Shown here in pieces: positions 26,590 through 41,675 of a stretch of DNA of 43,909 nt. Below the pieces are notes generated by a model. It did not search any database and was not told the origin of the DNA. It worked only from the letters and a program-made list of their open reading frames with translations. A program made the translations under genes and the position numbers. Source of the DNA: Oscillospiraceae bacterium (GTDB lineage Bacteria > Bacillota > Clostridia > Oscillospirales > Oscillospiraceae); the NCBI GenBank assembly GCA_017469115.1, contig JAFUGY010000136.1, positions 1 to 43,909 on the forward strand. The letters run 5' to 3'. Position 1 is the stretch's first letter. Each line of letters opens with the position of its first letter.

Positions 26590-27738
26590 TCACTCTTCAT
26601 TTGATTCCGCCAATTCCTGTACAATCCCCTGCATCTCCTCCATATGCGCCATCATGTCCCGGAAAAGCGCCAGCTGTGCTCTCGCTCTTACCAGGTTGTG
26701 TTCGGGATAATCGATTCTGAAATACTTGTCTCCCGTCAGATAATCCCCCAGAAATCTCGATGCCAGCTCCAGCGTAATAACCGCCGCGCCGGTCGCCAAG
26801 CTCTCAATCTCCGCCTCCGACAGTATATCTGCCGTTTGGGAAAGATATCCTTCCGCATACGCACGGAAGAGCCCTAGATCCAGCTTCATCTTCTCGGTGT
26901 CACTCTCGTCCTCCTCCGCCGTGCAGGCTGCAAAGCGTATCGTATCCCCAAAGTCATAGCACGCGAGCCCAGGCATGCACGTGTCAAGATCAATCACCAC
27001 CAGCGGGTCCAGCGTGTCCCTGTCAAAGAGAATGTTGTTGGTCTTTGTGTCGTTGTGCGTCACCCTGATCGGCAGCTCCCCTGCCTCAATCTGCCGGCAC
27101 AGCGTCCCGGCAAACTCCCGGTTCTCCCGGATCAGGGCAATCTCCTGCACAACTCCGGCAGCTCTCCCCACCGGGTCCTCCCCCACAATGCCGAAAAACG
27201 TATCCATCCGGAATGCCGTGTCATGAAAGTGTGAGATCGATTCCACCAGCTGGCTGGCATCAAAGTCCTGCAGCTGCCGCATGAATTTGCCGAAGGCCTT
27301 GCCGGATTCCCGCAGCACTTCCGGGTTTCCTTCCGACGTCTCAAAGCATACCGAGTTCTCCACAAAGTTGTATACCCGCCAGAACTCCTTCTCTTCTCCC
27401 TCTCCGAGGATCAGATAGTTGTTCCCTTCCGCCGTGTGGTGAAAGTGCAGCCGCCGCCTTCTCTCCAGCGTTCTCTCTTTGGCCATAATGTGCTGCGTGA
27501 TCAGTTCAATGTTGTGCATCATGGTGATCGGGTCTTTAAACACAAACCAGTTCACCTTCTGCACCAGATATTGTCTGACTTCCTTCCCGTCATACAGCGC
27601 TGTATAGTATGCCTCGTTGATGTGCCCGTTGGGAATCCTCCTGTAGAGTATCACTTCCCCCTTCAGCCGAAAGTCTCTGCATATTCTTTGTAACTTTTTT
27701 CGTATTGGATCTCCAGGTCTTGCTATATAATCCATCAT
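26590..27738 (-). CDS. APH-family phosphotransferase, N-acetylhexosamine 1-kinase-like
   Basis: A 382-aa small-molecule kinase of the aminoglycoside phosphotransferase fold. It shows the substrate-contact start PNGHINEAYY, the catalytic loop THNDTKTNNILFD and the metal-binding VIDLDTCMPGLACYDFGD. These read most like the NahK group, which phosphorylates GlcNAc/GalNAc at C1 in bifidobacteria. The setting among NagA, NagB and an N-acylglucosamine epimerase supports an amino-sugar kinase; whether it yields the 1- or 6-phosphate is unknown, and NagA downstream would need the 6-phosphate. Last gene of the operon, eight bases after the MFS gene. Confidence 0.8.
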   Translation of the reverse strand: MMDYIARPGDPIRKKLQRICRDFRLKGEVILYRRIPNGHINEAYYTALYDGKEVRQYLVQKVNWFVFKDPITMMHNIELITQHIMAKERTLERRRRLHFHHTAEGNNYLILGEGEEKEFWRVYNFVENSVCFETSEGNPEVLRESGKAFGKFMRQLQDFDASQLVESISHFHDTAFRMDTFFGIVGEDPVGRAAGVVQEIALIRENREFAGTLCRQIEAGELPIRVTHNDTKTNNILFDRDTLDPLVVIDLDTCMPGLACYDFGDTIRFAACTAEEDESDTEKMKLDLGLFRAYAEGYLSQTADILSEAEIESLATGAAVITLELASRFLGDYLTGDKYFRIDYPEHNLVRARAQLALFRDMMAHMEEMQGIVQELAESNEE

Positions 27739-27746
27739 GTCTTATC

Positions 27747-28901
27747 CTATTCCATTTTTAATGCCGTCAACGCACAGCAGATTGATAATGCTGGTAAAAC
27801 AAAAATTCCAACGTTTGCGCCTAATGCTGCTATAATTGCGCCAATAAGAGACGGTATAACAATGCTACCGCAATTATTTGTAAATATAATCACCGAACAC
27901 GCCACCGTGCTTTTCTTCCTGTCCAAAGAGCATGCATAATCCACCAGCATAGGAATTGTTGTCCCTTCTGCAAATCCTACCAAAAGGATCATAATGCACA
28001 TGATTTTTCCGTTTCCAATCAACACTCCGGCTATAAAGAGGGTTGCAGAACAGGCATTTCCAAATACCAGCAGCGTTTTGTGTCGCGCAATCAGATTTGG
28101 GAGAATGATCCTCGCGAGCAATGCCCCAACCCAGTAAAAAGTAAGAGCATAGATTCCCCAGCGTGTTTCCCTCAGATATTCCTGAATATATCGGACGATC
28201 CAAACCGTAAGTCCGATCTGATGTCCGTAATACATCAACCCGAACAGAAGTGTTCTGGCAGCGCCTTTTAATAATAAAAAGTCTTTTATTCCTGTTAAAT
28301 CAATTTGATCCGTTGCATTTACCGTTCCAGCAGGAAGCCTTCTTGCCGAAAACACAAAATAGAACATGAACAATCCTAACCCGACAAACCCAGCCCACAA
28401 TGCCACCCAGTGCCAGGTTAACCCGGTTGACATCAGTGCATTTAAAAGCAAAGGAGAAGTCATTCCGCCCAGGCAGTAAACTGCCCGCATATAACTCATC
28501 ATTTTAGCTGACTTTTCCGGGTAAATATCCGATATCAAGGAGGATGATAAACTATCGAAAATCCCGTAAGAGATCCCAAAAACTGCATACCAGAAGCAGA
28601 GGAAAAGAAACCGGTTCGGATGTAATCCAACACCCGGTAAAACCAGCGCCATGATGAATGCCATAATAAGAACAACCCTTGTTTTTGGCATTTTCGTCAA
28701 CAGAAACGCAGAAATAAATAAGGACAAGATAAAACCAATGCTTTCCGCTGTCCCGCAAAGTCCCTGGGCTGCTCCATCAAGGGAATATTCATCAATATAA
28801 GAGGTTAACATCACCCCTGTGGTTGCATGGATTGTCGCCGCGAGGGCAAACAAACCCATGAAACCGGCTATGGTTATGATTTCACCCTTTTGTCTGTTCA
28901 T
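27747..28901 (-). CDS. MFS transporter, probable sugar permease
   Basis: A 384-aa major facilitator with about 12 membrane helices (starting GEIITIAGFMGLFALAATIHATTG, helix 1). Short basic loops such as LTKMPKTR after helix 2 fit the MFS loop 2-3 motif. The substrate is not readable; its place between the AGE epimerase and the hexosamine kinase suggests uptake of an unphosphorylated (N-acetyl)hexosamine. The start overlaps the AGE stop by four bases (ATGA). Confidence 0.85.
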   Translation of the reverse strand: MNRQKGEIITIAGFMGLFALAATIHATTGVMLTSYIDEYSLDGAAQGLCGTAESIGFILSLFISAFLLTKMPKTRVVLIMAFIMALVLPGVGLHPNRFLFLCFWYAVFGISYGIFDSLSSSLISDIYPEKSAKMMSYMRAVYCLGGMTSPLLLNALMSTGLTWHWVALWAGFVGLGLFMFYFVFSARRLPAGTVNATDQIDLTGIKDFLLLKGAARTLLFGLMYYGHQIGLTVWIVRYIQEYLRETRWGIYALTFYWVGALLARIILPNLIARHKTLLVFGNACSATLFIAGVLIGNGKIMCIMILLVGFAEGTTIPMLVDYACSLDRKKSTVACSVIIFTNNCGSIVIPSLIGAIIAALGANVGIFVLPALSICCALTALKME

Positions 28902-30178
28902 ACAGGATTATACAGCAACTCAAGAATCAGAATCATGTTTCTCATAATGTGAAACGGATCCTTCACCGGTAATGCAACTACTTTCTCTTCCGGTGTTCCG
29001 TCTCTTCTTCTGATCTGTTTCCACTCTCTGATATTCGGATCTCTGTTTGGGAAAGTCTGAAATGTATATTCAAATACTTTTTCATGCCATGCCAGGAATT
29101 CTTCATCTCCCGATTCAAAATAACACCTCAGCGTTGTATACAGTGCCTCCGAATGAATCCACCAGAGTTTATCGCCCCATCCCATAAGTTGTTTTGTCAT
29201 GGTTTCGTTCTCAACACCTGTGTAGTCTCCGTTCGGTTCTCCGCCCTCTACGCCGCAGAAATGAAGCAATCCGCCATAAACATCATCCCAGCCATTCTGT
29301 AGTGCCTTTTTAGTCATATCAAAGATCTTTTCTTTAATTTCTGGTATTCCACAGATCGATGCCGTATCAAGCATAAACCATGCATCCTCAATGGTATGGC
29401 CGGGATTCATGTGCTGCCCAAGGATCTGCGGGAAAAAGATATTTTGTTCTGTAATAATTTCATGTAAAACGTTGTTTTTGTCTACAAAGTGCTCCAATTC
29501 ATCCAGGCAGAACTCCTTCATATCCTTTTTTAACTGCTCCGCAAAAACCATATCAAACTTCTCTGCTGCTCTCAAAAGTTCCCTTGCCGTGTTATCCAGA
29601 ATCATCGGGATTCCATGTGCTCTGTAGCAATGAGAAAGCGGATACGGCAGCGTGTTAAATTGATTCTTTCCCACTCGCTCCAAAATAGAGGCATACAGTT
29701 TTTTTGCAAATACATATGCTTCTTCTTTTCTGGAAACCGATGCATACATTCCCAGTCCGAGAACGGCAAAACAATCTGCATAAATGCTCATGTCAGGCGG
29801 TGAACCTGGAGTAACTTCTTTTGGTTTTCCATCCCGCTCCATCAGAAAAACACATCTCCAGTCACCCGGTGCAATAAGGCAATGCTTCATCAGAAATTCG
29901 GCACCCTGCTGTGCAAGGCGCAGAAATTCAGACCTTTCCCGGTCTGAAAACATCGGAATTGGTGTACCGGCTAATCTCGAAAAAATCCACACAAATCGCC
30001 CTTGGCTCCATGTATATTTGTCATAGGAGGCAAGTTTTTCTCCTGCATTATCAAAACAATTGAGAAATCCGCCGTACTCTTTGTCTTCACATCGTGGAAG
30101 CCAGAATCCCAAAAGATTCTGGCTCAATTCATTTTGGTAGAATCCATATAATTTTTTCTTCTCATTATAATTCATCAT
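28898..30178 (-). CDS. AGE-family N-acylglucosamine 2-epimerase
   Basis: A 426-aa (alpha/alpha)6-barrel epimerase of the AGE superfamily, whose members interconvert GlcNAc/ManNAc, glucose/mannose or related aldoses. Landmarks are the N-terminal NLLGFWLPRCEDKEYGGFLNC, the catalytic HMNPGHTIEDAWF and WWIHSEAL histidines and the RWGYTWSQGR-like YDKYTWSQGRFVW. I set the start at the ATG ATG at 30178, preceded by AAGAGG, which overlaps the upstream amidase by 14 bases; the frame runs open further to 30373 inside that gene. In this locus GlcNAc/ManNAc epimerisation is the natural guess. Confidence 0.88.
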   Translation of the reverse strand: MMNYNEKKKLYGFYQNELSQNLLGFWLPRCEDKEYGGFLNCFDNAGEKLASYDKYTWSQGRFVWIFSRLAGTPIPMFSDRERSEFLRLAQQGAEFLMKHCLIAPGDWRCVFLMERDGKPKEVTPGSPPDMSIYADCFAVLGLGMYASVSRKEEAYVFAKKLYASILERVGKNQFNTLPYPLSHCYRAHGIPMILDNTARELLRAAEKFDMVFAEQLKKDMKEFCLDELEHFVDKNNVLHEIITEQNIFFPQILGQHMNPGHTIEDAWFMLDTASICGIPEIKEKIFDMTKKALQNGWDDVYGGLLHFCGVEGGEPNGDYTGVENETMTKQLMGWGDKLWWIHSEALYTTLRCYFESGDEEFLAWHEKVFEYTFQTFPNRDPNIREWKQIRRRDGTPEEKVVALPVKDPFHIMRNMILILELLYNPV

Positions 30179-31109
30179 ATACCTCTTCATCCTTTGGTAA
30201 TTCTGTTCTCCTGGTGATTTCCCCATATAGTTCCGGTCGTCTTGTGCGGAGAATATCTTCTCCGAAGTAATCAACTCCGGATTTTCTGATACAAACAACA
30301 TCCTTTGTGATTCGGTGTTGTTCCGGTTCAAAAGCCGCAATTGCAAGTCCCGGTAAATGGCCTGTATCGGCAATAATTACGCCATCCGGATTGATAATAG
30401 TTGCTCTCCCCATATATTCATGACCTGTACAATAAGGTGCAAAAGGAGGAAGGCTGGCAAAATCCGCACCAACTATATAACATGCATTATCGATTGCTCT
30501 TGCCCTTGCCTGCAATAACACCATTTCTTCTGTCGGGCCATAGGTTTGATGCGGCCAAAGAAGGATATTTGCCCCTTTTAGCGTCAGAATCCTTGCTATT
30601 TCCGGGTAATTCATATCCATACAGATAATAATTCCGATTTTTCCGAAATCACAATCAAATACCGGAAGCTCGTCCCCGGCCGTAACACCGTTAATCCTAT
30701 GCTCCGATCCACACAAATGGCTCTTTCTATATTTCCCCGCAACATTCCCTTTCCTGTCTATCAGAACACATGTATTATAAGTTTTCCCATCATCCCGCTC
30801 ATAATAATTGGCGGCAATATACATGGAAAAATCTTGTGCTATGCAGCCAAAGCGATGCGTCATCGGGCCTGGAACAGGCTCTGCACAGGCAGCACAAATA
30901 TCACTTCTGTCTGTTCCTTCGCAATAGATTCCCCCGTCATTTACAGCCATCTCAAGAGAGCCAAATGTGTCAAAGTGTTCCGGTAGCACGAAAAGATCAC
31001 ATCCCGCTTTGCCTGCCTGATAAGCGGCATTTTCGCAAAGCTGAATGTAATCCTCCCGTGGAACTTCCGTTCCGTATTTTATTCTCGAAAAAGCAGCAGC
31101 TTTAACCAT
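30165..31109 (-). CDS. Carbon-nitrogen hydrolase (nitrilase superfamily)
   Basis: A 314-aa amidase distinct from the Nit2-like one at 16,189. The triad appears as Glu in LPEHFDTFG, Lys in GKYRKSHL and Cys in IIICMDMNYPE. Family members hydrolyse amides, N-carbamoyl groups or nitriles. Its place between the HIT gene and the AGE epimerase in an amino-sugar operon suggests removal of an acyl, amide or carbamoyl group from the sugar, but no specific substrate can be named. The start overlaps the HIT stop by eight bases and has no independent ribosome binding site, so it is translationally coupled. Confidence 0.85.
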   Translation of the reverse strand: MVKAAAFSRIKYGTEVPREDYIQLCENAAYQAGKAGCDLFVLPEHFDTFGSLEMAVNDGGIYCEGTDRSDICAACAEPVPGPMTHRFGCIAQDFSMYIAANYYERDDGKTYNTCVLIDRKGNVAGKYRKSHLCGSEHRINGVTAGDELPVFDCDFGKIGIIICMDMNYPEIARILTLKGANILLWPHQTYGPTEEMVLLQARARAIDNACYIVGADFASLPPFAPYCTGHEYMGRATIINPDGVIIADTGHLPGLAIAAFEPEQHRITKDVVCIRKSGVDYFGEDILRTRRPELYGEITRRTELPKDEEVYDEL

Positions 31110-31548
31110 GATTTAATCGGGAAAGCAGTGCTTCCCTCATCCTGTCCATGCGTTCTTTATTCTCTTCTTCGCTGAGAAACACTCTGTTTTCCGGGAACAT
31201 GATAAATGGCTGTCCCCACCCGATTTTCCCCTTGTATTTCGGGCATATTGTGAAGTGGACATGACGGCATTCATCTCCGTAAATACCATAATTAATCTTG
31301 TCAGGATGGAATAAATCTTTAATGGTTTCTGCCAAAAGGCATACATCATCCAGATATAGATCTCTCTCTTTCTTTGGAATCTGGTATATTTCTTCGTAGT
31401 GATCTTGAAACATAATTGTGCAGCGCCCCGGCAAAGTCTGATCTTTACAATAAAAGACCTTGGACACTCTCAAATCACATAGTTCGAATAATAGCTCCCG
31501 GAAGTTTTCATTCCTGTCACAATAATAGCATCCTTTTTCTGTAATCAT
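31102..31548 (-). CDS. HIT family protein with atypical triad
   Basis: A 148-aa histidine-triad protein: an N-terminal CYYC pair (C7, C10), then FQDHYEEIYQIPKKE and the triad segment C-R-H96-V-H98-F-T100-I-CPK. HIT proteins are nucleotidyl hydrolases or transferases that use the middle His as nucleophile. That His (H98) is kept but the third triad His is Thr. The role in a sugar operon is unclear; hydrolysis of a nucleotide by-product or a nucleotidyl transfer are possible. Downstream genes overlap it, and NagA ends 13 bases before it. Confidence 0.82.
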   Translation of the reverse strand: MITEKGCYYCDRNENFRELLFELCDLRVSKVFYCKDQTLPGRCTIMFQDHYEEIYQIPKKERDLYLDDVCLLAETIKDLFHPDKINYGIYGDECRHVHFTICPKYKGKIGWGQPFIMFPENRVFLSEEENKERMDRMREALLSRLNHG

Positions 31549-31560
31549 AGATTCTCTCCC

Positions 31561-32748
31561 TTATAAAACTTTTCTGCCCCCAATATAGACTGCTGAAACA
31601 CGCACATCCTCATCAAATAGGACGAAATCAGCATCTTTCGCTTTCTCGATGGATCCTTTTCTGTTATCTACACCGATCAGTCTAGCTGGATTCAGTGTCA
31701 TCATTTTTACTGCTTTCTCAATTGACAGTCCCGCCTGCTGGTGCATGGTTCTCACACATCGGTCTGTTGTGCAAACACTGCCGGCAAAGGCCTTGAAGTT
31801 TGGCATCATTGCCACACCATCCCGAATAATGGCATCCTGTCCATTTGCAAGGCTGCCCAATTTTGCATGCTGTCCTTCCGGTAATCCGGCTCCCCGCATC
31901 GAATCCGTAATCAGGCAGATCTTGTCATTGTCTTTGCATTTCACAATCAGCTTCAATAATTCTGCAGGCAGATGCTTTCCATCGGCTATAATCTCAACAC
32001 TCAGCTCATCAAATGCATAAGAAGACTCTACAACACCCAATACCCTGTAAGGCCCTACTCTGTGCAGCGATGACATGCCGGAGTATAAATGCGTCACATG
32101 GGAGTAACCATGTCCGAGTGCCTCCCGCACCTGATCATAATTCGCATCCGAGTGCCCGATAGCCGCCAGAATCCCCCGTCTGGCAAGTTCATCACCAAGC
32201 TGCATTGCTCCGTCCAGTTCCACTGCAACTGACATCCGTACAATGTCTTCTCCGCCCGCATCCAGAATCGGGAGATAGTTTTCCGGTTTCGGCAGTTGCA
32301 GATAGGCGGGATCCTGCGCGCCGGCTTGCGCCGGTGAAAAAAACGGCCCCTCCAGATGAATCCCGAGAAAATTCGGACCATCCTTCCACTCTGCTTTCAC
32401 CTTACGATAAATGGCAAAAAATCGAAACAGTTCTTCATTGGTACCGGTCAATGTCGTGGGACAAATCGAAGTCGTTCCATGTTTCAGATGCTCCTTGCAG
32501 GCCCCGATAAGAGCTTCCTCACTGCCGTCCATAAAATCGTGCCCACCGGCACCGTGCGTATGGATGTCAATAAAACCCGGTGCAAGATACTGCCCGCCGC
32601 AGTCAACCAGCTCATACTGCCGGGTTACCTTCTCGTCAGGTATTCCGCTGTAAATCCCGGATATTTTCCCATCATCCGCTGTTACAGATCCTGCAATAAT
32701 CCTGTCCGGTAAAACAATGTTCGCATGATAAAACAGTTGTCTCTCCAT
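31561..32748 (-). CDS. nagA: N-acetylglucosamine-6-phosphate deacetylase
   Basis: A 395-aa amidohydrolase that removes acetate from GlcNAc-6-P in the cytosol. Visible motifs are DIHTHGAGGHDFMDG, the metal glutamate in HLEGPFFS, GHSDANYDQ and THLYSGMSS with metal histidines, and the catalytic Asp in LITDSMRGAGLP. It also recognises the family QPxxAGAQDP loop (SPAQAGAQDPAYL). The HTH pair suggests a two-metal enzyme as in Bacillus. The ATG at 32748 overlaps the NagB stop by one base (TGATG), with GGAGAT upstream. Close homologues act on other N-acylhexosamine phosphates, so specificity is inferred. Confidence 0.9.
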   Translation of the reverse strand: MERQLFYHANIVLPDRIIAGSVTADDGKISGIYSGIPDEKVTRQYELVDCGGQYLAPGFIDIHTHGAGGHDFMDGSEEALIGACKEHLKHGTTSICPTTLTGTNEELFRFFAIYRKVKAEWKDGPNFLGIHLEGPFFSPAQAGAQDPAYLQLPKPENYLPILDAGGEDIVRMSVAVELDGAMQLGDELARRGILAAIGHSDANYDQVREALGHGYSHVTHLYSGMSSLHRVGPYRVLGVVESSYAFDELSVEIIADGKHLPAELLKLIVKCKDNDKICLITDSMRGAGLPEGQHAKLGSLANGQDAIIRDGVAMMPNFKAFAGSVCTTDRCVRTMHQQAGLSIEKAVKMMTLNPARLIGVDNRKGSIEKAKDADFVLFDEDVRVSAVYIGGRKVL

Positions 32749-33518
32749 CACAGGATCTCCCTCCCCGCCTCCTCGTCCGCATAGAGGAAAGCATGCTCCT
32801 GCGCTTTCAGAATGGTGGCTGGGCAGGCAGTGGAAATCTCATCCCGAACTACATGGGCAACAGCATTCGCCTTGGTCGCTGCTGGGACGGAACAATACAT
32901 CCATTTCGCAGCGCACAACCCCGGTACCGTTACCGTCAGTGCATGCGTCGGTACGTCTTCCAGCTTTTCAAAGCAACCGTCATGTACCTGCTGTTCCCGA
33001 CAAATGCGGTCAAGCTTCACAACTTTTGCCCGTTTTGTGTCAGCAAAATCAGCAACCGGAGGATCATTAAAGGCAATATGCCCATTTTCTCCGATTCCGA
33101 GAATACAGATATCCAGCGGATGTTCCTCCAATAACTTTCCATATCGATCCGCTTCTTCTTCCGGATCGTTCGCATTTCCGTTTAATAGATGAACGCTCTT
33201 AAACGGTTTCCGGTCAAATACCGCTTTTCGCAGAAAATTCCGAAACCCTGCCGGATGATTCTCATCCAGCCCGACATATTCATCCATATGAAATCCGTTT
33301 ACCCTGCTCCAGTCAATATCCGGATCTGCCATCAACACCTGCAGTGTTTCATTCTGCGAAGGCGCTGCTGCAAACATGACATTGATCTCTTCTTTCCCGG
33401 AGAGAAGTTCCTTTATTTTGAGTGCGGCTTCCGTTCCTGCGCACACACCCATTTCGTCACGCGTATCAAACACGCGAACCCGCATTTTCCCAAAATAAGT
33501 ATCTTTTCTTATAGACAT
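32748..33518 (-). CDS. nagB: Glucosamine-6-phosphate deaminase (NagB family)
   Basis: A 256-aa NagB/SIS-superfamily aldose-ketose isomerase that converts amino-sugar 6-phosphate to a ketose phosphate and ammonia. Motifs are FHMDEYVGLD (catalytic Asp), CILGIGENGHIAFNDPP with the ring-opening His and general-base residues, and a phosphate loop that reads AAAPSQNETL instead of the ATGSTP of E. coli NagB. This loop marks a NagB subgroup, so galactosamine- or another hexosamine-6-phosphate is possible. It is the first gene of the second block; AAAGGGG precedes the ATG. Confidence 0.85.
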   Translation of the reverse strand: MSIRKDTYFGKMRVRVFDTRDEMGVCAGTEAALKIKELLSGKEEINVMFAAAPSQNETLQVLMADPDIDWSRVNGFHMDEYVGLDENHPAGFRNFLRKAVFDRKPFKSVHLLNGNANDPEEEADRYGKLLEEHPLDICILGIGENGHIAFNDPPVADFADTKRAKVVKLDRICREQQVHDGCFEKLEDVPTHALTVTVPGLCAAKWMYCSVPAATKANAVAHVVRDEISTACPATILKAQEHAFLYADEEAGREIL

Positions 33519-33601
33519 AGTTATCCCCTTTAAGTAAGCATATCTGTTTTTATTATGTAGATCAGTTGTCTGCCCTGCATAACTTTGTCTTTCTCTTCTT
33601 T

Positions 33602-33627
33602 CTGTCTACACTCCGGATTGCAGACAG
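33602..33627. promoter_or_regulatory. Inverted repeat in the larA-like/nagB gap
   Basis: CTGTCT (33602-33607) and AGACAG (33622-33627) flank a 14-base interior. The 121-base gap 33,519-33,639 may also hold a weak nagB promoter (TACATA, minus strand, around 33556). Similar GTCTG/CAGAC elements occur in the lacI/SIS intergenic region. Confidence 0.4.
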
Positions 33628-33639
33628 GAAGCTGATGAT

Positions 33640-34914
33640 TCAGTTGTATAAGAATGTCTCTGCGCCGTTTGACAGTGCGCCAATCCTACAGTCAGGATTA
33701 TCTTCAATAACTTTATTGATCAGCGCTTGCAGTTGATTCAGAGGAACCTGCTCACAACCGCATTGCTCCATTTCTTCTTTTGTTACACCATCTCCTACAA
33801 CAATCAGTTTCCTTCTTCTTCGCATCTTGCTCATGCTGTTTCCTACTGCAATGGCAAGCGGATCTCCTTTTACTTCTTCGCGGCGAAAAATGGCTCTTAC
33901 CATTTCATCCCCGTCATCTCTGCCCATATATTCAGGGTATTCAGCGTGCGGGCCAATCCCCTCATAGTTTGGGCTGATCATAATCAGGATCCCACCCTTT
34001 TCTCCTTTCAAGGCAGGTTCTGCAGCATACATAGCCTTCGGGCTCTGCCAGAAATCCTGATCTGCCGGATGGGAAGAGCAGATCATCACATCTGCTTTCT
34101 CCTTTACTTGATAACCTACAATCTTTTTCCCCCGTCTGACGCCTTCACGCTGTGCTGCGATATAATGCCCGGCAACCACATCAGCAATCTCAAGGTGTGC
34201 GTTCAGAATTACATTGATGATAAAGTCCAACCCGATGGAGTTTACCCATCCCTCCATCATATTCCGGATTGGGGTTGTGTCACATCCAAACATATTCTCA
34301 TCAAACAGAGACGCTTTTAAATGGAAATAAGCAACAGTTTTTTCCCCTGCAATTCCGGGATAGAGGATTTTTCCTCCTCCACCCCATCCCATCACAGGAT
34401 GTGGCACCAGGCATCCTACACCTATATGGATTTCTGTGTCCATTACCACCTTGGAGGCAAGAATTTTCACGCCTTCCGGCGTATCCCCAACATATACCAG
34501 TTTTTCCGGATCACGGAATTCTGAATTCATCACGGCGTAGTTGCTGTAAACTTCATCTCCCACTCTCTCACGCAGTTCATCTTCCGTCATATACCGGTGG
34601 CTGCCAAGGGCTGCCACAATCCGGATATCCTCCCTGCGTGCGCCTGCTTTCTCCAGTCTTCTGAGCAAAATCGGCAGTATTTTATTCTGCGGTGTCGGGC
34701 GGGAACCGTCATCGATAATAACGGCAATCTTTTTCCCGGGAACAACAATCTGATCCAGCGGATCACATCCGAAAGGATGATCAATCGCAGCCTCGATTGC
34801 TCGGTCAAGATCTGCAATTGGGTTCACAAATTCCGGATCCATCATTCCGATAAAATTTTGATCCGGGATCTCGAACCGGACTTTTTCCTTTCCGTAAGGC
34901 ATGGTTATTTTCAT
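33640..34914 (-). CDS. LarA-type nickel-dependent racemase/epimerase (DUF2088)
   Basis: A 424-aa homologue of lactate racemase LarA, which uses a covalently bound nickel-pincer nucleotide. All key residues of Lactobacillus LarA have counterparts at an offset of two: H106 (GSHRYMT), H172 (PHPVMGWGGG), K182 (GGKILYPG, the cofactor lysine) and H198 (YFHLK), plus DDGSRPTP at the N terminus. Other LarA homologues epimerise malate, gluconate and other alpha-hydroxy acids, so lactate is not certain. No cofactor genes (larB, larC, larE) are in the window. It ends the ABC-transporter block; AGGAGG precedes the ATG. Confidence 0.9.
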   Translation of the reverse strand: MKITMPYGKEKVRFEIPDQNFIGMMDPEFVNPIADLDRAIEAAIDHPFGCDPLDQIVVPGKKIAVIIDDGSRPTPQNKILPILLRRLEKAGARREDIRIVAALGSHRYMTEDELRERVGDEVYSNYAVMNSEFRDPEKLVYVGDTPEGVKILASKVVMDTEIHIGVGCLVPHPVMGWGGGGKILYPGIAGEKTVAYFHLKASLFDENMFGCDTTPIRNMMEGWVNSIGLDFIINVILNAHLEIADVVAGHYIAAQREGVRRGKKIVGYQVKEKADVMICSSHPADQDFWQSPKAMYAAEPALKGEKGGILIMISPNYEGIGPHAEYPEYMGRDDGDEMVRAIFRREEVKGDPLAIAVGNSMSKMRRRRKLIVVGDGVTKEEMEQCGCEQVPLNQLQALINKVIEDNPDCRIGALSNGAETFLYN

Positions 34915-34944
34915 AAAACCTCCTGTCCCCTCTTTCCCTCCGGA

Positions 34945-34966
34945 TGTCTCCGTCAGTACGGAGACA
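34945..34966 (-). promoter_or_regulatory. Intercistronic stem-loop before the larA-like gene's upstream permease
   Basis: TGTCTCCGT, loop CAGT, ACGGAGACA: a perfect 9-bp stem between the second permease (ends 35009) and the LarA-type gene (starts 34914). No T tract follows on the minus strand, so it is probably an mRNA-stabilising or processing stem rather than a terminator. Confidence 0.55.
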
Positions 34967-35008
34967 CCCGCGAAGAGAAAGGAGGGTTACCCAATGAAAC
35001 GGCTCTTT

Positions 35009-35842
35009 TTATTTGATTGCGCCTTTTGTTGCATCACCCGTAATATAATTCCGGATACAGATAAACAATACCACAAGCGGAATCGTCGTCAAAACCGCAC
35101 CGGCCATAACCAGCTCCCACGGGATTCCGACTGCAGGGTTGTTTTTCAGGATCTCATACAACTTCACGATAATTGTTTTCTTATCTGTGCTTGAGATAAA
35201 TGTAAAGGCAAAGAGAAATTCGTTCCACGTTCTTGTAAAAACGAAGATGACGGATACGGCAATTCCGGTTGCTGAGATTGGGGTGATCACCCGCGTTAAC
35301 GTCTGAAATTTGCTGCAGCCGTCAATCGTAGCAGCTTCCACAATCTCATTCGGTACGTTATCAAAATTGCTTTTCAACATTAGCACAATAAAAGCCAGAT
35401 TGAATGTCACATTCATCATCACGAGGCTTACCCTTGTGTTAATCAGCCCCCAGCCGTTCACCATCTGATAGAGTGGAATCACGACAATAATCGGTGCAAA
35501 CATCTGGCTGATCAAAACGAGATAGTAAAGCGGCTTCTTGATTTGAAATTTCAGCTTCGATAACGCATAGGCAGCAGGAATCGCAATTGCCATAATCACG
35601 ACGATTGTTCCGCCGGTTACAATCAGGCTGTTCTTAAATCCGTTCAGGATATCCATCTTCCGAAAAACCGTAACATAATTGGACCATTGCGGTTCTGCCG
35701 GAAACCAGGTAACCGGTTTGGAAAAAACCTCTGCGTTCGTCTTCAGTGAAACACCGATCATGGCGATTACCGGGCCAAGCAGCAGCGTCAGCATAACAAC
35801 CACCACAAGCCCGAGAACCAGTTTTTTTGTTGCTTTACTCAT
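35009..35842 (-). CDS. Sugar ABC transporter permease, MalG type
   Basis: A 277-aa inner-membrane subunit of a carbohydrate (CUT1) ABC importer. It has about six membrane helices and the EAA loop for the ATPase (VEAATIDGCSKFQTLTRVITP). The start is the ATG at 35842 with GGAGGAG upstream, overlapping the stop of the first permease by eight bases. It pairs with the MalF-like protein and the binding protein upstream. No ATPase gene is in the locus, so a shared MsmK/MsiK-type ATPase elsewhere is expected. Confidence 0.92.
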   Translation of the reverse strand: MSKATKKLVLGLVVVVMLTLLLGPVIAMIGVSLKTNAEVFSKPVTWFPAEPQWSNYVTVFRKMDILNGFKNSLIVTGGTIVVIMAIAIPAAYALSKLKFQIKKPLYYLVLISQMFAPIIVVIPLYQMVNGWGLINTRVSLVMMNVTFNLAFIVLMLKSNFDNVPNEIVEAATIDGCSKFQTLTRVITPISATGIAVSVIFVFTRTWNEFLFAFTFISSTDKKTIIVKLYEILKNNPAVGIPWELVMAGAVLTTIPLVVLFICIRNYITGDATKGAIK

Positions 35843-36719
35843 AGCTCTCCTCCCTGCCCTTGCTTTGAACATAAAGCACTGCAAATATCATCAGGATGAA
35901 GAAGCACACAACACTGATTGCCGCACTGTACGGCCTGTTGTTAAATTCGAAAGCATTGGAATACACCTGATTGACCAGAATTGCAGAAGAATTCGCTGGT
36001 CCTCCCGTTGTCATCATATAGATCACATCAAAGGAGTTGAATGCCCAGATGCCAATGAGAAGGGCAAGCGTTCTTACATCTTTGAAAATCATCGGGAGTG
36101 TAATCCGCATATACTGCTGCCAGGCGTTTGCTCCATCCAGTTCGGCAGCTTCATAAATATAAGCCGGGATTGCATACATGGAGGAGAGAATATTCAATGC
36201 GCAAAAAGGTGCTACTGCCCAGATATTGACAATCATTACAGCAGTAAGTGATGTTGCAGGTTTCCCCAAAAAGGAAACCGCTCTATTGATAAAATGCAAA
36301 TCCAAAAGCATCTGGTTAATATGTCCGAAGTTTGGATTATACATTAATCTCCACACCGTGCAGGAGACTGCCGCCGGCATCGCATAGGGTATCAGAATAA
36401 TTACCGTAAGCAGCTTTTTCCCCCTGAATTTTTTGTTAAGAATATAGGCCATAATGAGGCCGAGGACAATTTTGGATGCCGTGCCGATCAGGCACCAGAT
36501 AGCAGTGTTTTTAAACACTATTTTTGCTTCTTTCGAGTGAAAGAATTTTGTATAGTTGCCGAGCCCTGCCCAGCTCATTTCTCCGGAGGCAGACTTGATA
36601 AAAAAGGACTGGTAGATTACCTGGACAACAGGATAAAGAATAAAAACACAGAATACCAGGATCATCGGAAGAATATAGAGATAGTCCTTCCATCTGTCTT
36701 GATTAAGAGAATGATTCAC
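35835..36719 (-). CDS. Sugar ABC transporter permease, MalF/UgpA type
   Basis: A 294-aa CUT1 permease with six membrane helices, starting LYILPMILVFCVFILYPVVQ, and the EAA loop YEAAELDGANAWQQYMRITLP. I place the start at the GTG at 36719 (VNHSLNQDRWKDY) because AAAGGAG lies ten bases upstream; the frame open to 36848 would read through the intercistronic stem-loop. It lies between the substrate-binding protein and the MalG-type permease. Confidence 0.9.
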   Translation of the reverse strand: MNHSLNQDRWKDYLYILPMILVFCVFILYPVVQVIYQSFFIKSASGEMSWAGLGNYTKFFHSKEAKIVFKNTAIWCLIGTASKIVLGLIMAYILNKKFRGKKLLTVIILIPYAMPAAVSCTVWRLMYNPNFGHINQMLLDLHFINRAVSFLGKPATSLTAVMIVNIWAVAPFCALNILSSMYAIPAYIYEAAELDGANAWQQYMRITLPMIFKDVRTLALLIGIWAFNSFDVIYMMTTGGPANSSAILVNQVYSNAFEFNNRPYSAAISVVCFFILMIFAVLYVQSKGREESYE

Positions 36720-36748
36720 AGATAATCTTCTCCTTTCTTTTGGGGATC

Positions 36749-36774
36749 GGGCCACAGGTTTAATCCCATGGCCC
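36749..36774 (-). promoter_or_regulatory. Stem-loop between binding protein and permease genes
   Basis: Minus-strand GGGCCATGGG, loop ATTAAA, CCTGTGGCCC gives a 10-bp stem with two G-U pairs. Stable stems after binding-protein genes commonly protect the mRNA 3' end and raise its expression over the permeases. No T tract. Confidence 0.55.
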
Positions 36775-36820
36775 TCTTTTCTTGACTGGATCTTATGAGA
36801 GAATTCCGTGCCAGTACTTT

Positions 36821-38056
36821 TTACTGTGCTGCAAGCACTGCATTGCATTCGGTCTCGGCAGCAGCCCAGGCTTCTTCTGCCGTCTCTACGCCGAACACCG
36901 CATTGGTAACATGGTCAGCCATAATCTTCTGGATTTCTTCCCAGCAGGTAATGGACGGTTTGAACTTGGCAATTCCTTCCATTGCAACAAACGGTGCAAC
37001 CAGGGCATTGTCAGGATCAGAGAACGCAGGGATAGCTTCTACATAGGATGCCTGGTTGGGAACCCAGCCTGCAGCCTTGATTACTTCGCCCTGATATTTG
37101 GCCTGATGCCACAGTTCAAGGAACTTTGCCGTAATCTCTTCGTTGCCTGTTGCAAACATCAGGTCTACATCCATAACACCGTAAGAATAAGCTTCTCCGC
37201 CGGGTCCCTTCAACGGGTCAATAATCTCTGCCCATTCATGGCTCTCACCTGCAGCTTCCAGTGCAGCAAGCCCCTGCCCGTTGTGAATATAAACAGCAGC
37301 TGTCTGCGTTGTGAATGCGCTCTGGGTTTCGTTGATGGTGTTTTCACCATAGCCCGGCTCTGCATACTCGGCAAGATCCACATACATCTGAAGCGCTGCA
37401 ACACCTTCCGGCGTATTGAAGGCAACCGTCTGGCGGTCAGCACTCAGTACGTCGCTGCCATATGCCCACAGGATCGGGAGGAAGCAGTCGATGGTGTTCT
37501 TTGCATGGCCTGCAACCATGGTGTAAGCATACGGTGTCACATCATTGCAGAGCTTCGGTGCAACTTCAAGCAGGCCTTCCCACGTGTCGGGAACTTCAAC
37601 GCCGGCTGCATCAAAGGATGCTTTGTTGATCAGCTCAGAACGGACGGACATGTAAGAGGGCATTGCCCACATTTTTCCGTCAACACTGCAAACGTCACGG
37701 GCTGCCTGTGAGAAGTCGTTATACAGCTCGTCACTGATGAGCCCGTCAAATGGGACTGACCAGCCCGCCTTCATAAACTGTTCCGTCCATGAAGAGAACC
37801 CATACATGGCATCCGGCATATTTCCTGCTTCTGCCAGCGTCAGGATCTTCTGATAAGCATCAGAATAGCTCCAGCTTTCGAGGTTGACCTTCACCCCGGT
37901 TTCTGCTTCAAATTCAGCCGCAGCTTCCTCAAGCAGTGCCATACCTGTGTCGCCAAGGGTCACATACGTGATTTCCTTTGTCTCGGCAGATGCGAAGCAG
38001 GTGCAGAGGGAAAGAACCATCACGAGTGCAAGGATAAGGGATAGTGCTTTTTTCAT
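36821..38056 (-). CDS. Extracellular sugar-binding protein of the ABC importer
   Basis: A 410-aa solute-binding protein (MalE/CUT1 cluster). It has a signal peptide (MKKALSLILALVMVLSLC, then probable cleavage after FASA at residue 24), followed by ITYVTLGDTGMALLEEAAAEF and the bacterial SBP fold with FATGNEEITAKFLELW near the C terminus. Unlike most Gram-positive binding proteins it has no proper lipobox around its cysteines (C18, C20), so anchoring is unclear. The start at 38056 has AAGGAG. It is the most upstream transporter gene, just after the SIS genes. Confidence 0.9.
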   Translation of the reverse strand: MKKALSLILALVMVLSLCTCFASAETKEITYVTLGDTGMALLEEAAAEFEAETGVKVNLESWSYSDAYQKILTLAEAGNMPDAMYGFSSWTEQFMKAGWSVPFDGLISDELYNDFSQAARDVCSVDGKMWAMPSYMSVRSELINKASFDAAGVEVPDTWEGLLEVAPKLCNDVTPYAYTMVAGHAKNTIDCFLPILWAYGSDVLSADRQTVAFNTPEGVAALQMYVDLAEYAEPGYGENTINETQSAFTTQTAAVYIHNGQGLAALEAAGESHEWAEIIDPLKGPGGEAYSYGVMDVDLMFATGNEEITAKFLELWHQAKYQGEVIKAAGWVPNQASYVEAIPAFSDPDNALVAPFVAMEGIAKFKPSITCWEEIQKIMADHVTNAVFGVETAEEAWAAAETECNAVLAAQ

Positions 38057-38111
38057 TGGTTTTTCTCCTTTTTCTTTATTTGATAGCCGGTCACCCGGAT
38101 ACCATTCATTT

Positions 38112-38723
38112 TTAAAGATGCCTGATGCGGAAAAGCATTTTATCGATTTTCTCTGTATTCCTGTCAAGATCAACGGTTCTCTTTCCAAGCCAGACTTTTT
38201 CTTCCGGAAGCCCTGCATCCATCATCATGTTCAGGATGGCCGAAACTGCAATGGCATATGTGTCATCCCCACAATGGGTAGAAACCGATACTTCTCCGTC
38301 CGTCCCATTGTCAGAGATTGTGATAATCCGCAGCTTTTTCTCCTTGGCCCACTGCAGGCTCTGTGCAAACATTGGGAGCGTTTCATCGCTGCCAATCAGG
38401 ATAAACGGATCCCCTTCCTCCACTCTTTCATAATAATCCAGAATACACGGTGCAAGATTCTTAACTTCCCAGGCCATCTGATTCCGATAGGCACCATGGG
38501 CTGAATCCAGTGTCGGGTCGAGCATCGGATCGATTGTGATCGGCATCCCTGCCCGGAAAAACACTTCTGAAATCAGTGCAGATGATCTTGTATCTGTTCC
38601 GAAGATGTGGATTAACCGGTTTTCTTTTACCGCAGCAGAAATGATCTTCTGTGCCGATTGAATATGCTTCTCCTCCGCATCCAGTGCTTTCAGGGTGGCA
38701 ATTGCTCTGTCAAGATATTCCAT
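38112..38723 (-). CDS. SIS-domain protein, short paralogue
   Basis: A 203-aa sugar-isomerase (SIS) domain protein: HIFGTDTRSSALISEVFFRAG, PMLDPTLDSAHGA, and ILIGSDETLP replacing the phosphosugar-binding Ser-rich loop. It is shorter and more diverged than its two neighbours but shares their order of motifs. SIS domains bind phosphosugars as isomerases, deaminases, etherases or regulators. The start at 38723 has GAGGGG upstream; a GTG at 38738 is possible. It is followed by the binding protein. Confidence 0.82.
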   Translation of the reverse strand: MEYLDRAIATLKALDAEEKHIQSAQKIISAAVKENRLIHIFGTDTRSSALISEVFFRAGMPITIDPMLDPTLDSAHGAYRNQMAWEVKNLAPCILDYYERVEEGDPFILIGSDETLPMFAQSLQWAKEKKLRIITISDNGTDGEVSVSTHCGDDTYAIAVSAILNMMMDAGLPEEKVWLGKRTVDLDRNTEKIDKMLFRIRHL

Positions 38724-38734
38724 TCTCTCACCCC

Positions 38735-39490
38735 TCACATCGATTTCACTCTGCCCCAGATCTGATTCATATAGGCACTGTTTGCCTCAATACCGCCTTC
38801 TTGCAAGGAATTTGTCCATGTAAACGGATCTACTCCTTTTTCCTTTAAGCGCACCATCGTTTCCGCCAGAAGTGCTTTCAGCAGTATCGCCTGCATCACA
38901 GTAGCCACCGGCGAAATCTTATGCTCCAGAAAATCATATTCTAAAATAGCATCTCCATAAGGCACTTTGCTGTCCAGATAAAGGTCACTCACCGAGTATA
39001 AACTTGCTCCGCTTTTATGCTTTGCCCCTGCATAAGTGGATGCGTCTGAGAAAGACGGTGAAGTGATAGAGATTACAGTTGCTCCTCTGTTTCGGCATTC
39101 AACCGCTGCGCTGATAGCCACGGGGTTGATGCCGTAAGCACTGCCGAACACAATCACATCACCTTTCCCAATCCGATTGTATTCCACGATCACTTTTCCC
39201 AGGCCTTCCACACGTTCCATTCCGTTAATCTCACGCGCAGCTCCGTGGGATAGGGAGATATTGGCATCGTAAATCGGGCAGACAGCGGCAAGCTCTCCTT
39301 TGCGGTACATGATATCCTCTGAAAAGATGGAGGAATGCCCTCCGGGACCCCATGTGAAAATCAGATGCCCTTCAGCAACCCGATCTGCCATGATTTCAGC
39401 CGCCTGTGCAAACTTTTTTGCCTCGGTTTCTTTCACCTGCTCTATTAAATTCTGAACACCGGTCAGATAATCCAATGCCGCATGTACCAT
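38735..39490 (-). CDS. SIS-domain (UPF0309-like) sugar isomerase homologue 2
   Basis: A 251-aa SIS protein with LIFTWGPGGHSSIFSEDIMYRKG, YDANISLSHGA, the loop VFGSAYGINPVAISAAVECRNRG and HKSGASLYSVSDLYLDSKVPYGDA. It is a clear paralogue of the 39,589-40,350 gene and resembles UPF0309 proteins of unknown function. The canonical NSGR phosphosugar loop is SAYG. Probably an isomerase or phosphosugar lyase acting on the imported sugar. Confidence 0.85.
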   Translation of the reverse strand: MVHAALDYLTGVQNLIEQVKETEAKKFAQAAEIMADRVAEGHLIFTWGPGGHSSIFSEDIMYRKGELAAVCPIYDANISLSHGAAREINGMERVEGLGKVIVEYNRIGKGDVIVFGSAYGINPVAISAAVECRNRGATVISITSPSFSDASTYAGAKHKSGASLYSVSDLYLDSKVPYGDAILEYDFLEHKISPVATVMQAILLKALLAETMVRLKEKGVDPFTWTNSLQEGGIEANSAYMNQIWGRVKSM

Positions 39491-39516
39491 AATAAGCTCC
39501 CGTTTTCTCCTTTTTG

Positions 39517-39535
39517 CCTTCCCATGCAGGGAAGG
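39517..39535 (-). promoter_or_regulatory. Stem-loop between the first two SIS genes
   Basis: CCTTCCC, loop ATGCA, GGGAAGG: a perfect 7-bp stem in the 98-base gap, 15 bases before the ribosome binding site of the next gene. It may tune expression of the downstream SIS gene. Confidence 0.5.
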
Positions 39536-39588
39536 GGGACCGCGATCTATCGAGGTGGATGAGGTTCACCTGATTAACTGCTGCGCAA

Positions 39589-40350
39589 TTACAGCAGATG
39601 TTTCACAAGTCTCCCGTACTTTTCTTCCAGTGCCTTGTTGTGCTCATCCCCTCCGGGCATATTGGCACTCTCAAAAACTGGCGGCTCTATTCCTCTCTTC
39701 ACCAGCTCCTGAACAATGGTGGCGCTCAGGCAATTCATGCAAAAGCAGTTGCAGAAGGTGCTGGTTGAACCTACTTTCTGGTCGTATCCTTCGATTTCGA
39801 TCACCGCATCGCCCACCGGCAGGTGATTATTGATATAGATATCAGCCTCTTCAAACAGATTCTTTCCGCTCGGATGCCTGCTCTGATGGCCTTGCGGCAC
39901 AATTTTCGCAAAAGAATCTGACGTAACAGCAATTGTCGTTACCCCTCGCTTTTTACACTCCAGCACAGTATCAATCGTCATGGCATTGATCCCATAGGCA
40001 TTGATAATCACCATCACCTCTCCCGGCTCTTTGCCGACATGATAAGCATCAAGCACTGCTTTTGCATAGCCGGGTGTCCGTTCTACTATGTTGCTTCTCT
40101 TTGCCCCGTGGATTAGGTTGGTGCCGGCGTCAAGAATAGCATCCCAGATAGCCAGCCCCCCGGCTCTCCACAGAATTTCTTCCACTCCCATATTGCTGTG
40201 CCCTCCGGGGCCGATCACATGCACCATCTTGTCAGCTTCCACTGCATCTGCAATAATCTTTGCCGCTTTGTCAAAAGACTCCTGCTCCTGCTCAATTTGG
40301 GCAAACAAGCCATCAATTGTTTCTCTAAAGCCATGAATCAGATTACTCAT
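39589..40350 (-). CDS. SIS-domain (UPF0309-like) sugar isomerase homologue 3
   Basis: A 253-aa SIS protein and first gene of the operon. It carries VHVIGPGGHSNMGVEEILWRAGG, LDAGTNLIHGA, VIINAYGINAMTIDTVLECKKRG, HPSGKNLFEEADIYIN and the C-terminal GIEPPVFESANMPGGDEHN typical of UPF0309 sugar-isomerase-domain proteins. The NSGR loop again is NAYG. GGGAGGA precedes the ATG. Expression is presumably controlled by the divergent LacI-type regulator. Confidence 0.87.
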   Translation of the reverse strand: MSNLIHGFRETIDGLFAQIEQEQESFDKAAKIIADAVEADKMVHVIGPGGHSNMGVEEILWRAGGLAIWDAILDAGTNLIHGAKRSNIVERTPGYAKAVLDAYHVGKEPGEVMVIINAYGINAMTIDTVLECKKRGVTTIAVTSDSFAKIVPQGHQSRHPSGKNLFEEADIYINNHLPVGDAVIEIEGYDQKVGSTSTFCNCFCMNCLSATIVQELVKRGIEPPVFESANMPGGDEHNKALEEKYGRLVKHLL

Positions 40351-40380: not shown

Positions 40381-40409
40381 AGAGTAAAACAGAAAAATAT
40401 TTCTGTAAA
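40381..40409 (-). promoter_or_regulatory. Promoter and candidate operator of the SIS-ABC operon
   Basis: Minus-strand TTTACA (40409-40404), a 17-base spacer and TACTCT (40386-40381) form a weak promoter. The palindrome ACAGAAA-AATA-TTTCTGT (40389-40406) fills its spacer and touches the -35, an ideal repressor position. Confidence 0.5.
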
Positions 40410-40410
40410 G

Positions 40411-40495
40411 TTTGATTTTGTCTGCATTTTAACCAAATATTTGTCTTTGATTTTGTAAAAATTAGCTAAAAAACAACCCAGACAAGTCTGTAGAC
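40411..40495. promoter_or_regulatory. Repeats and palindromes in the lacI/SIS intergenic region
   Basis: TTTGATTTTGT occurs twice (40411-40421, 40446-40456). TTAGCTAA (40462-40469), CAGAC-AA-GTCTG (40479-40490) and GTCTGTAGAC (40486-40495) are palindromic. Any of these could be regulator sites; none has the central CG usual for LacI-family operators. Confidence 0.4.
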
Positions 40496-40523
40496 ATATT
40501 TAAAAAAGAAAACTTTTCTTTTC

Positions 40524-40552
40524 TTGCTTTCTTCCTTCTCTCGTGTTATTCT
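40524..40552 (+). promoter_or_regulatory. Promoter of the LacI-type regulator
   Basis: TTGCTT (40524-40529), a 17-base spacer and TATTCT (40547-40552), 29 bases before the ATG at 40581. Confidence 0.6.
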
Positions 40553-40580
40553 GAAAAAAACACTGTTTCAGGAGGCCGCC

Positions 40581-41675
40581 ATGTCCCGAAAGAAAAATCC
40601 AGCTCGCGGTGCAACCTTAGCCGATGTCGCAAATCGGTCAGGCGTATCTCTCGCCTCTGCTTCCCGCGTCCTCAGCGACTCTGAATATCCCGTTAGTACA
40701 AAAACAAGAAAACGTGTGATTGAGGCCGCAAATGAACTGAATTACTTTCCCGTTGCTTCTTCTCTCATCATAAAATTTGATACCAGCCCGGTATTGGGAA
40801 TCATCGTCCCGACGCTTCAGAACCCTTTCTTCAGCCAGGTAATTCTGGGAGTAGAAGCAGAAGCAAACAGGCATGGTTATCAGGTGATGGTCTGCTCCTC
40901 GCATCGCTCCGTAGAAGAAGAGCGAAAAAACATTCACTCGCTCCTGCGCTCAAGAATCACTTCCCTGATCATCATTTCCATCGATTCTGAGAAGGCAACT
41001 CTTGAAAACTATATTGCCTGCGGTGGGCAGGTCGCCATGCTGGAGTCAAATTTTTCTTTGCCTAACACCATCATGACGCGCACTGATTATCCCTCTGCCG
41101 GGAAGATGGCTGCAGAGCACCTTATTTCCTTTGGGCATAGGAACATTGCGTTCTTCACGTCCCCACTCACCAAATCCTACCGCAGAGGAATACTTTCCGG
41201 TGTACGCACCACCATGAAAGAAGCAGGTCTCCCCTTTCCTGACAGCAATATCTTTGTCGCTGGAACTGAGATGGAAACTGACACCGGATTATATGAGTTT
41301 GAAATGGGAAAACATCTGGTCGATCAGTTTCTATCCGAAAAGCATGGTTCCATCACAGCCATCATTGCCATCAACGACCTGACAGCTTTCGGCATTCTCC
41401 AGGCTTTCACCAGGAAGGGTATCTCCGTGCCGAAAGACATTTCCGTTATCAGTTTTGACAACCTGCCGTATTCCGGCATGATCTATCCGCCGCTGACAAC
41501 AATTGAACTTCCATCTGCCAATCTCGGCACTTCGGCCTGTAAAATGCTCATCAGCATGATAGAAGGGCATTTCAGCCACCAGATCGGTATTACCTTTGAT
41601 TTTCAGGGAAAACTGATTGACCGTGAATCTGTCCGCTATCTCAACAGAGCCGAACGGTCAACCTCCGAGCAATAG
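40581..41675 (+). CDS. LacI-family transcriptional regulator
   Basis: A 364-aa regulator with an N-terminal LacI-type helix-turn-helix (TLADVANRSGVSLASASRVL, about 12-31) and hinge, then a periplasmic-binding-like effector domain (LGIIVPTLQNPFFSQVILGVEAE, GHRNIAF, AINDLTAFG, SVISFDN). GGAGG precedes the ATG at 41,581 minus 1000, that is 40581. It is divergent from the SIS-ABC-LarA block and most likely represses it, with a sugar or phosphosugar as inducer. The effector pocket does not reveal the ligand. Confidence 0.92.
   Translation: MSRKKNPARGATLADVANRSGVSLASASRVLSDSEYPVSTKTRKRVIEAANELNYFPVASSLIIKFDTSPVLGIIVPTLQNPFFSQVILGVEAEANRHGYQVMVCSSHRSVEEERKNIHSLLRSRITSLIIISIDSEKATLENYIACGGQVAMLESNFSLPNTIMTRTDYPSAGKMAAEHLISFGHRNIAFFTSPLTKSYRRGILSGVRTTMKEAGLPFPDSNIFVAGTEMETDTGLYEFEMGKHLVDQFLSEKHGSITAIIAINDLTAFGILQAFTRKGISVPKDISVISFDNLPYSGMIYPPLTTIELPSANLGTSACKMLISMIEGHFSHQIGITFDFQGKLIDRESVRYLNRAERSTSEQ

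Follow-up and report, generated by a model that had tools for sequence, protein, structure and literature searches.

A conserved variant of amino-sugar catabolism in an Oscillospiraceae genome, with N-acetylhexosaminuronates as a candidate substrate class

Which compound is broken down by an amino-sugar gene cluster that carries more enzymes than the N-acetylglucosamine (GlcNAc) pathway uses? The question is raised by a 43,909-nucleotide stretch of an Oscillospiraceae genome (contig JAFUGY010000136.1, assembly GCA_017469115.1), the whole of which is called the window below. It contains a cluster of 14 minus-strand genes (26590-40350) and a divergent LacI gene, all of them open frames. An earlier note, made from the sequence alone, had named their families, and these names agree with the family and structure matches obtained here. 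The cluster represents a genuine variant of amino-sugar catabolism that is conserved and for which a substrate class can be predicted. Tentatively, and at slightly less than an even chance, we read it as a system for the kinase-independent catabolism of N-acetylhexosaminuronates, in which a C6 carboxylate would take the place of the C6 phosphate. We favor this assignment because it unites the lost phosphate motifs, the keto-uronate enzymes, the epimerase of the N-acylglucosamine 2-epimerase (AGE) type and the hydroxyacid epimerase. The genes that carry the argument are the following.

39589..40350, minus strand: SISa, a UPF0309-type SIS protein, NAYGIN variant of the NagS fold (PF13580; NF002805, 234.7 bits; NagS alignment; structure model)
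38735..39490, minus strand: SISb, SAYGIN variant (PF13580-type SIS match; alignment; inside the variant clade)
38112..38738, minus strand: SISc, a short SIS protein (PF13580, 46 bits; alignment)
33640..34914, minus strand: LarA homologue (PF09861, PF21113; below all NCBIfam subgroup cut-offs)
32748..33518, minus strand: NagB', NagB-like with an FAAAPSQ loop (PF01182, 63.4 bits; below NCBIfam cut-offs)
31561..32751, minus strand: NagA', a NagA-like deacetylase with SGM for NAM (TIGR00221 nagA, 271.5 bits, cut-off 225.65)

Motifs of the SIS, NagA-like, NagB-like and LarA proteins

Among the relatives of SISa, NagS has been studied most; it is the UPF0309 GlcNAc 6-phosphate dehydratase of Streptomyces (PDB 9eol). 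According to the sections of the NagS paper used here, the H53A, R64A, E94A and D179A mutants are inactive, S54A, S119A and S121A retain activity, and activity is absent or negligible in three homologues with 25.7-35.7% identity (PMC12680351). SISa keeps H53, R64, E94, D179 and N228 in an alignment with NagS while S91, S119 and S121 are replaced by N, N and Y, and it carries an Arg at NagS position 89 that is missing from its Ser-type relatives. Its structure model (mean predicted local distance difference test score 94) is nearest to 3cvj and NagS, with a template-modeling score of ~0.9 to NagS and 0.66 to MurQ, the N-acetylmuramic acid (MurNAc) 6-phosphate etherase, with which it has a weaker common fold. 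With ~30% identity to NagS, SISa lies below the orthologue-level identity of 58.7% or more and differs from NagS in clade and gene context as well. The retained His/Arg/Glu/Asp set points to abstraction of the C2 proton, as would serve a dehydration, the elimination of a substituent at C3 or an epimerisation. In a tree, SISb falls together with the variant SIS proteins in a single group (47 of 70 rows, support 100/100) and NagS sits on a long branch. SISb retains H53, R64, E94 and D179 but not N228. SISc, with 17 related database proteins at E <= 0.001 (its own entry counted), is likely a non-catalytic partner because equivalents of H53, E94 and D179 are missing, and SISb may be the protein it accompanies. 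None of the three is assigned to the MurQ family, SISb reaching 19.3 bits where the cut-off is 168 and SISa and SISc having no match.

NagA' and NagB' resemble NagA and NagB of E. coli in being a homologous deacetylase and deaminase with adjacent genes and most catalytic residues retained. The TGGTP-type loop and R172 of NagB presumably bind phosphate; a literature search for the phosphate-binding residues of NagB did not find them. NagB' has FAAAPSQ in place of the TGGTP loop, N at D141 and no Arg at 172, an alignment-dependent position that reads Q in one alignment and mostly G in another and is never Arg in NagB', while D72, H143 and K208 are kept. NagA' keeps E131, H195, H216 and D273, with SGM replacing the NAM phosphate motif. 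The matching Asn and Ala bind phosphate in M. smegmatis NagA, for which GlcNAc is no substrate, as stated in the part of the source consulted (PMC6016474). The window cluster further departs from the E. coli system in its additional SIS, LarA, HIT and amidase genes and in import through an ATP-binding cassette (ABC) transporter. With SISa, NagA' and NagB' each lacking canonical 6-phosphate motifs, the cluster is, judged by these motifs, not a plain GlcNAc operon. This bears out the earlier note in its view that the GlcNAc route does not explain the locus. NagA and NagB, which the note placed with AGE and a hexosamine kinase in an N-acetylhexosamine route, do not count as evidence for a GlcNAc 6-phosphate route, since neither has the canonical phosphate motifs. 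The source genome encodes a canonical NagB elsewhere (C61, 60% to E. coli). In the same genome, which is 89% complete, no second NagA was found and no clear MurQ, apart from one partial match (E 3.5e-4).

The LarA homologue has the domains of the LarA superfamily (PMC7583248 and PMC11770544, each in the portions drawn on) and keeps the named catalytic positions and those that bind the nickel-pincer nucleotide (NPN) cofactor; LarC is encoded in the source genome. Its loop after the catalytic His reads P-V and helix 11 carries a W. In the portions of PMC7583248 drawn on, lactate racemases (groups 1 and 3) have an F-F loop at this place, and the gluconate-epimerase groups 18-20 have an E-V/S loop, the helix-11 W and A/V in helix 14. 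The window protein thus shares the helix-11 W and the loop V with the gluconate epimerases. A lactate racemase identity was considered and is ruled against by the P-V loop. As the protein reaches none of the NCBIfam subgroup cut-offs (best 281.1 vs 500), it is, by these sequence measures, a member of a LarA subgroup outside the assigned ones.

Recurrence of the cluster and its link to hexuronate genes

A search of genome contigs with SISa as query yielded 37 loci. SISa, SISb, SISc, LarA and NagB' occur together in three of them (L034, L035 and L037, from Clostridia and Oscillospiraceae metagenome-assembled genomes), a co-occurrence that is more than chance; the neighborhood described in the earlier note does recur in relatives. 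HIT is present in all three loci, NagA', the ABC genes and the amidase in two each and AGE in one, and the locus without NagA' is cut inside NagB. SISa is divergent from SISb in all three whereas it lies in line with SISb in the window. The MFS transporter and the NahK-like kinase, listed in none of the 37 loci, are outside the recurrent core. A search for SISb in 394 genomes of the window's own order gave, apart from the window itself, no match of more than 37% identity, and a HIT-LarA pair stands without SIS on a short contig of one more genome (L071). A smaller core of SISa, NagB' and/or NagA' and an importer is found in Spirochaetes, Thermotogae, Acetothermia, a Thermococcus bin and Thermosediminibacter.

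After removal of duplicates (L042, L046, L049 and L055, equal to L099, L100, L101 and L104), 53 distinct SIS loci comprised 38 of NAYGIN type, defined as any N.[YN]G.N and including two NVNGIN copies, and 15 of Ser type. Many loci are short, so all linked-gene counts are lower bounds. NagB is present in 21 of the 38 NAYGIN-type loci, each time as an FA[AS]APS copy, and in 0/15 Ser-type loci. NagA is found in 24 NAYGIN-type loci (19 of the window class and five of a second class, HLGNG), in no case with the canonical NAM, and in one Ser-type locus. LarA is near seven NAYGIN-type loci (L034, L035, L037, L053, L056, L061 and L099) vs one of Ser type; in L053 and L056 the LarA beside SISa is of the lactate type. 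AGE accompanies 8/38 and a DctM-like TRAP gene 11/38, where TRAP, like Opp, GntR and BadF as neighbor names, is a reading of the sequence and not a hidden Markov model assignment. The neighbors scanned in L041, L049, L058, L142 and L146 are mainly housekeeping or signaling genes. Four further neighborhoods were observed. Genes of the URO-D family (methyltransferase-like) recur beside NagB' or SISa (L140:7612-10629, L044:15330-16550, L139:2234), and a Ceramidase_alk-like gene (PF04734 in L109) lies repeatedly beside SISa (L099, L100, L106, L107, L109, L110, L111, L117). In L136 and L138, NagB' and the second NagA class have GH20/GH3 genes next to them; in L143 their vicinity includes NamZ and a heparinase-II/III-like gene.

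We searched a 398-genome sample of the phylum for SISa, NagB' and the tagaturonate epimerase UxaE. Thirteen genomes, the source genome excluded, had a SISa match of at least 200 bits; the 12 of these sequences that were read are of NAYGIN type and seven weaker ones that were read are of Ser type. UxaE is present in 11 of the 13 vs 22/384 others (p 1.6e-11; the genomes are related and the UxaE p-values therefore indicative), with one of the 11 matches weak (G759) and one split (G813). The association is seen as well when three genomes with physical linkage are set aside (8/10 vs 25/387) and when counted by family label (8/9 vs 7/152, the family total being approximate and taken from the highest label). 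NagB' occurs in 13/13 of these genomes vs 21/384 others. Among the controls, UxaE is found in 2/16 genomes with Ser-type or weaker SIS and in 4/21 with NagB' and no NAYGIN-type SIS (p 0.086). In the three linked genomes (G719, G820 and G732), SISa, NagA and NagB' cluster with UxaE, UxaB, UxaA and KduI, joined in two of these genomes by a pair of 2-keto-3-deoxy-6-phosphogluconate aldolase and PfkB genes; UxaC had no match in these stretches (E. coli query, E 1e-10). NagB' is further part of a TRAP-like/Mannitol_dh/UxuA cluster (L140) and lies near a PfkB kinase gene in L149 (69% to the PfkB of G732). Outside the cluster, the source genome has genes for UxuA, for Mannitol_dh proteins and for UxaA/UxaB-like proteins.

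Layout of the cluster and its remaining genes

The other genes and two sequence elements of the locus are listed here.

40524..41675, plus strand: divergent LacI-family regulator (Pfam LacI and Peripla_BP; likelier start 40581)
40389..40406, no strand: imperfect palindrome in the lacI/SISa gap, putative operator (sequence only)
36821..38218, minus strand: ABC solute-binding protein (PF01547; likelier start 38056, signal-peptide-like)
35835..36848, minus strand: ABC permease 1 (PF00528)
35009..35884, minus strand: ABC permease 2 (PF00528)
34941..34970, minus strand: stable hairpin in the gap between permease 2 and larA, putative expression control (106-nt fold, z -5.35)
31102..31548, minus strand: HIT-like protein, motif HVHFT (solved HIT proteins; 2oik, E 8.5e-10)
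30165..31109, minus strand: CN_hydrolase amidase (PF00795, 149.1 bits)
28898..30373, minus strand: AGE-type N-acylglucosamine 2-epimerase (PF07221; PDB AGE match; likelier start 30190 or 30178)
27747..28901, minus strand: MFS (major facilitator superfamily) transporter (PF07690)
26590..27738, minus strand: NahK-like N-acetylhexosamine kinase (PF01636; 4ocu, E 2.8e-80)

The family matches are SIS_2 (three proteins), SBP, two BPD permeases, Lar_N/LarA_C, Glucosamine_iso, amidohydrolase, CN_hydrolase, GlcNAc_2-epim, MFS_1, APH and LacI. With starts refined as listed for AGE, the binding protein and LacI, neighboring genes overlap by up to 50 bases or lie up to 121 bases apart; the gaps above 50 bases are SISa/SISb (98), SISc/binding protein (55), permease 2/LarA (94) and LarA/NagB (121). 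The hairpin between permease 2 and larA separates the import block from the enzyme block. No ATPase gene for the ABC importer is present in the 14-gene cluster. A search of the PDB with the binding protein gave weak matches to varied sugar binders, and an assignment of its ligand from solved structures was dropped for that reason. NahK makes 1-phosphates.

Pfam and NCBIfam give no match to the HIT-like protein, which is recognized by its match to solved HIT proteins. In its HVHFT motif, Thr stands in place of the triad's third His. Its relatives (P0018-P0112) have Thr at this place (HVHxT) in 85 of 95 cases and Asn in two, with no motif match in eight. The HIT and amidase genes overlap as separate genes in the window and form one 480-amino-acid frame in L034 (6189-7628, minus strand; 475 amino acids in P0140). 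Because they are fused into one protein in L034, the two probably act together. We take animal NitFhit to be a comparable nitrilase-HIT fusion, from which the L034 protein differs in its catabolic cluster and in the change of the third HIT His to Thr.

Two elements flank the cluster. A group II intron adjoins it at 42101-43836 on the minus strand (maturase 42101-43522; RNA pieces 43539-43613 and 43669-43836), and a YhgA/Rpn-like putative transposase or nuclease gene (PF04754; 25529-26431, plus strand) lies just past its end.

A predicted route for N-acetylhexosaminuronates and its rivals

Under the hexosaminuronate assignment, the ABC importer would bring in an N-acetylhexosaminuronate or its amide, and the amidase, together with HIT, would take off the amide where needed. 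AGE would interconvert the C2 epimers N-acetylmannosaminuronic acid (ManNAcA) and N-acetylglucosaminuronic acid (GlcNAcA). SISa, perhaps with SISb and SISc, may act at C2/C3 of the open-chain sugar by C2-proton abstraction of the NagS/MurQ type; this and the role of HIT are among the least certain steps. NagA' would release acetate and NagB' would deaminate the product to fructuronate or tagaturonate, which UxuB/UxaB-like and UxuA/UxaA-like enzymes from other parts of the genome could convert to 2-keto-3-deoxygluconate (KDG). LarA could epimerise a hexonate, or the uronate itself at the C5 hydroxyl, which is alpha to the carboxylate. The route would feed into known hexuronate catabolism (UxaE/UxaB/UxaA, UxuB/UxuA, KDG), which is linked to the NAYGIN-type SIS in three genomes and over-represented with it; it would differ in its entry, by deacetylation and deamination of an amino-uronate, and in that the hexuronate genes are not in the window.

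Several observations weigh against this assignment. UxaE was not found in the source genome, and no Uxa or keto-uronate genes are among the 14 genes of the window cluster. The Uxa linkage is seen in 3/38 loci, many of them short, and the three Uxa-linked clusters are without LarA, HIT and amidase. KduI, present in all three, may itself serve as the uronate isomerase, so that NagB' is not required as a source of keto-uronate. NagB' also occurs in the GH20/GH3 and NamZ neighborhoods named above, two Spirochaete loci (L038 and L053) have MurQ next to SISa, and some NAYGIN-type SIS genes have kinase genes in their vicinity (FGGY in L103, BadF-like in L038 and L053). The best score of the window LarA, below the cut-off, is to the malate racemase group 6. 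Finally, the activity of the NagS S119A and S121A mutants means that loss of the serines alone is no proof of lost phosphate binding in SISa.

Some of these points could arise if the substrate were a neutral, unphosphorylated N-acetylhexosamine released from a uronate-containing, glycosaminoglycan-like heteropolymer, with NagB' yielding a free ketohexose and the Uxa/Kdu genes handling the uronate half only. We consider this unlikely, though the strongest of the competing explanations: it accounts for the lost phosphate motifs and the hexuronate neighbors together, KduI could stand in for UxaC in all three Uxa clusters, and the GH20/GH3 genes, the heparinase-II/III-like gene of L143 and the FGGY kinase near SISa in L103 fit it. 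However, no glycosidase or lyase was recognized among the genes labeled or scanned in the three Uxa-linked clusters, L140 combines NagB' and UxuA with no recognized uronate isomerase or NagA, and the window LarA would be left without a role. The MurQ neighbors lead to another candidate, MurNAc or muropeptides, with SISa acting as etherase on MurNAc that bears no phosphate, the amidase cutting the lactyl-peptide bond and LarA racemising the freed lactate. The common fold of NagS, MurQ and SISa and the lactate-type LarA in L053 and L056 agree with such a scheme, and in Spirochaetes, where L038 and L053 carry MurQ (54-55% to E. coli) and oligopeptide-transporter-like genes (a sequence reading) beside SISa and L053 a PTS_EIIC-like gene too, muropeptide use is possible. 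For the window it is improbable, since its LarA is not of the lactate type, SISb scores far below the MurQ cut-off, the source genome at its 89% completeness shows no clear MurQ and the UxaE association would be left unexplained.

Least probable of all, and in our view very unlikely, is an ordinary GlcNAc/N-acetylmannosamine 6-phosphate operon whose NagA, NagB and SIS proteins have merely diverged and whose accessory genes were assembled by chance. NagA' does score above the TIGR00221 cut-off, K208 is kept in NagB', NagS tolerates loss of the phosphate serines, and both AGE and a NahK-like kinase are in the cluster. Set against this are the complete absence of NAM from the 24 linked NagAs and the FA[AS]APS loop in 21/21 linked NagB loci, the separate canonical NagB of the source genome, the position of the kinase outside the recurrent core and the 1-phosphate product of NahK. 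The extra acid, amide or lactyl group of the earlier note is upheld in part: the motif loss, the UxaE association and the Uxa linkage are best explained by an amino sugar that bears an acid. The lactyl group is disfavored at the window locus because of the P-V loop and helix-11 W of LarA and the lack of a clear MurQ in the genome, yet loci L053 and L038 of Spirochaetes show a lactyl link next to SISa, so that such a link is conceivable for the family.

Bacterial capsules and wall polymers often contain aminouronic acids. A literature search of open-licence PMC papers found no described catabolic route for them. A broader proposal, possible but rather doubtful, is that bacteria possess a pathway devoted to N-acetylhexosaminuronic acids and the corresponding amides, in which NagA, NagB and a NagS-type SIS protein would have been retooled together as the C6 carboxylate replaced the C6 phosphate. 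Its core would extend over Firmicutes, Spirochaetes, Thermotogae, Acetothermia and a Thermococcus bin, and the window lineage would have added a LarA that inverts the alpha-hydroxyacid carbon. Capsules, teichuronic acids or the talosaminuronic acid of archaeal pseudomurein could be natural sources of the substrate. If the assignment is correct, it would supply a substrate class for the UPF0309 SIS proteins outside Streptomyces, left without one in the consulted sections of the NagS paper (PMC12680351), and would provide a context for an unassigned LarA subgroup. Many proteins annotated as NagA or NagB may then not act on GlcNAc 6-phosphate.

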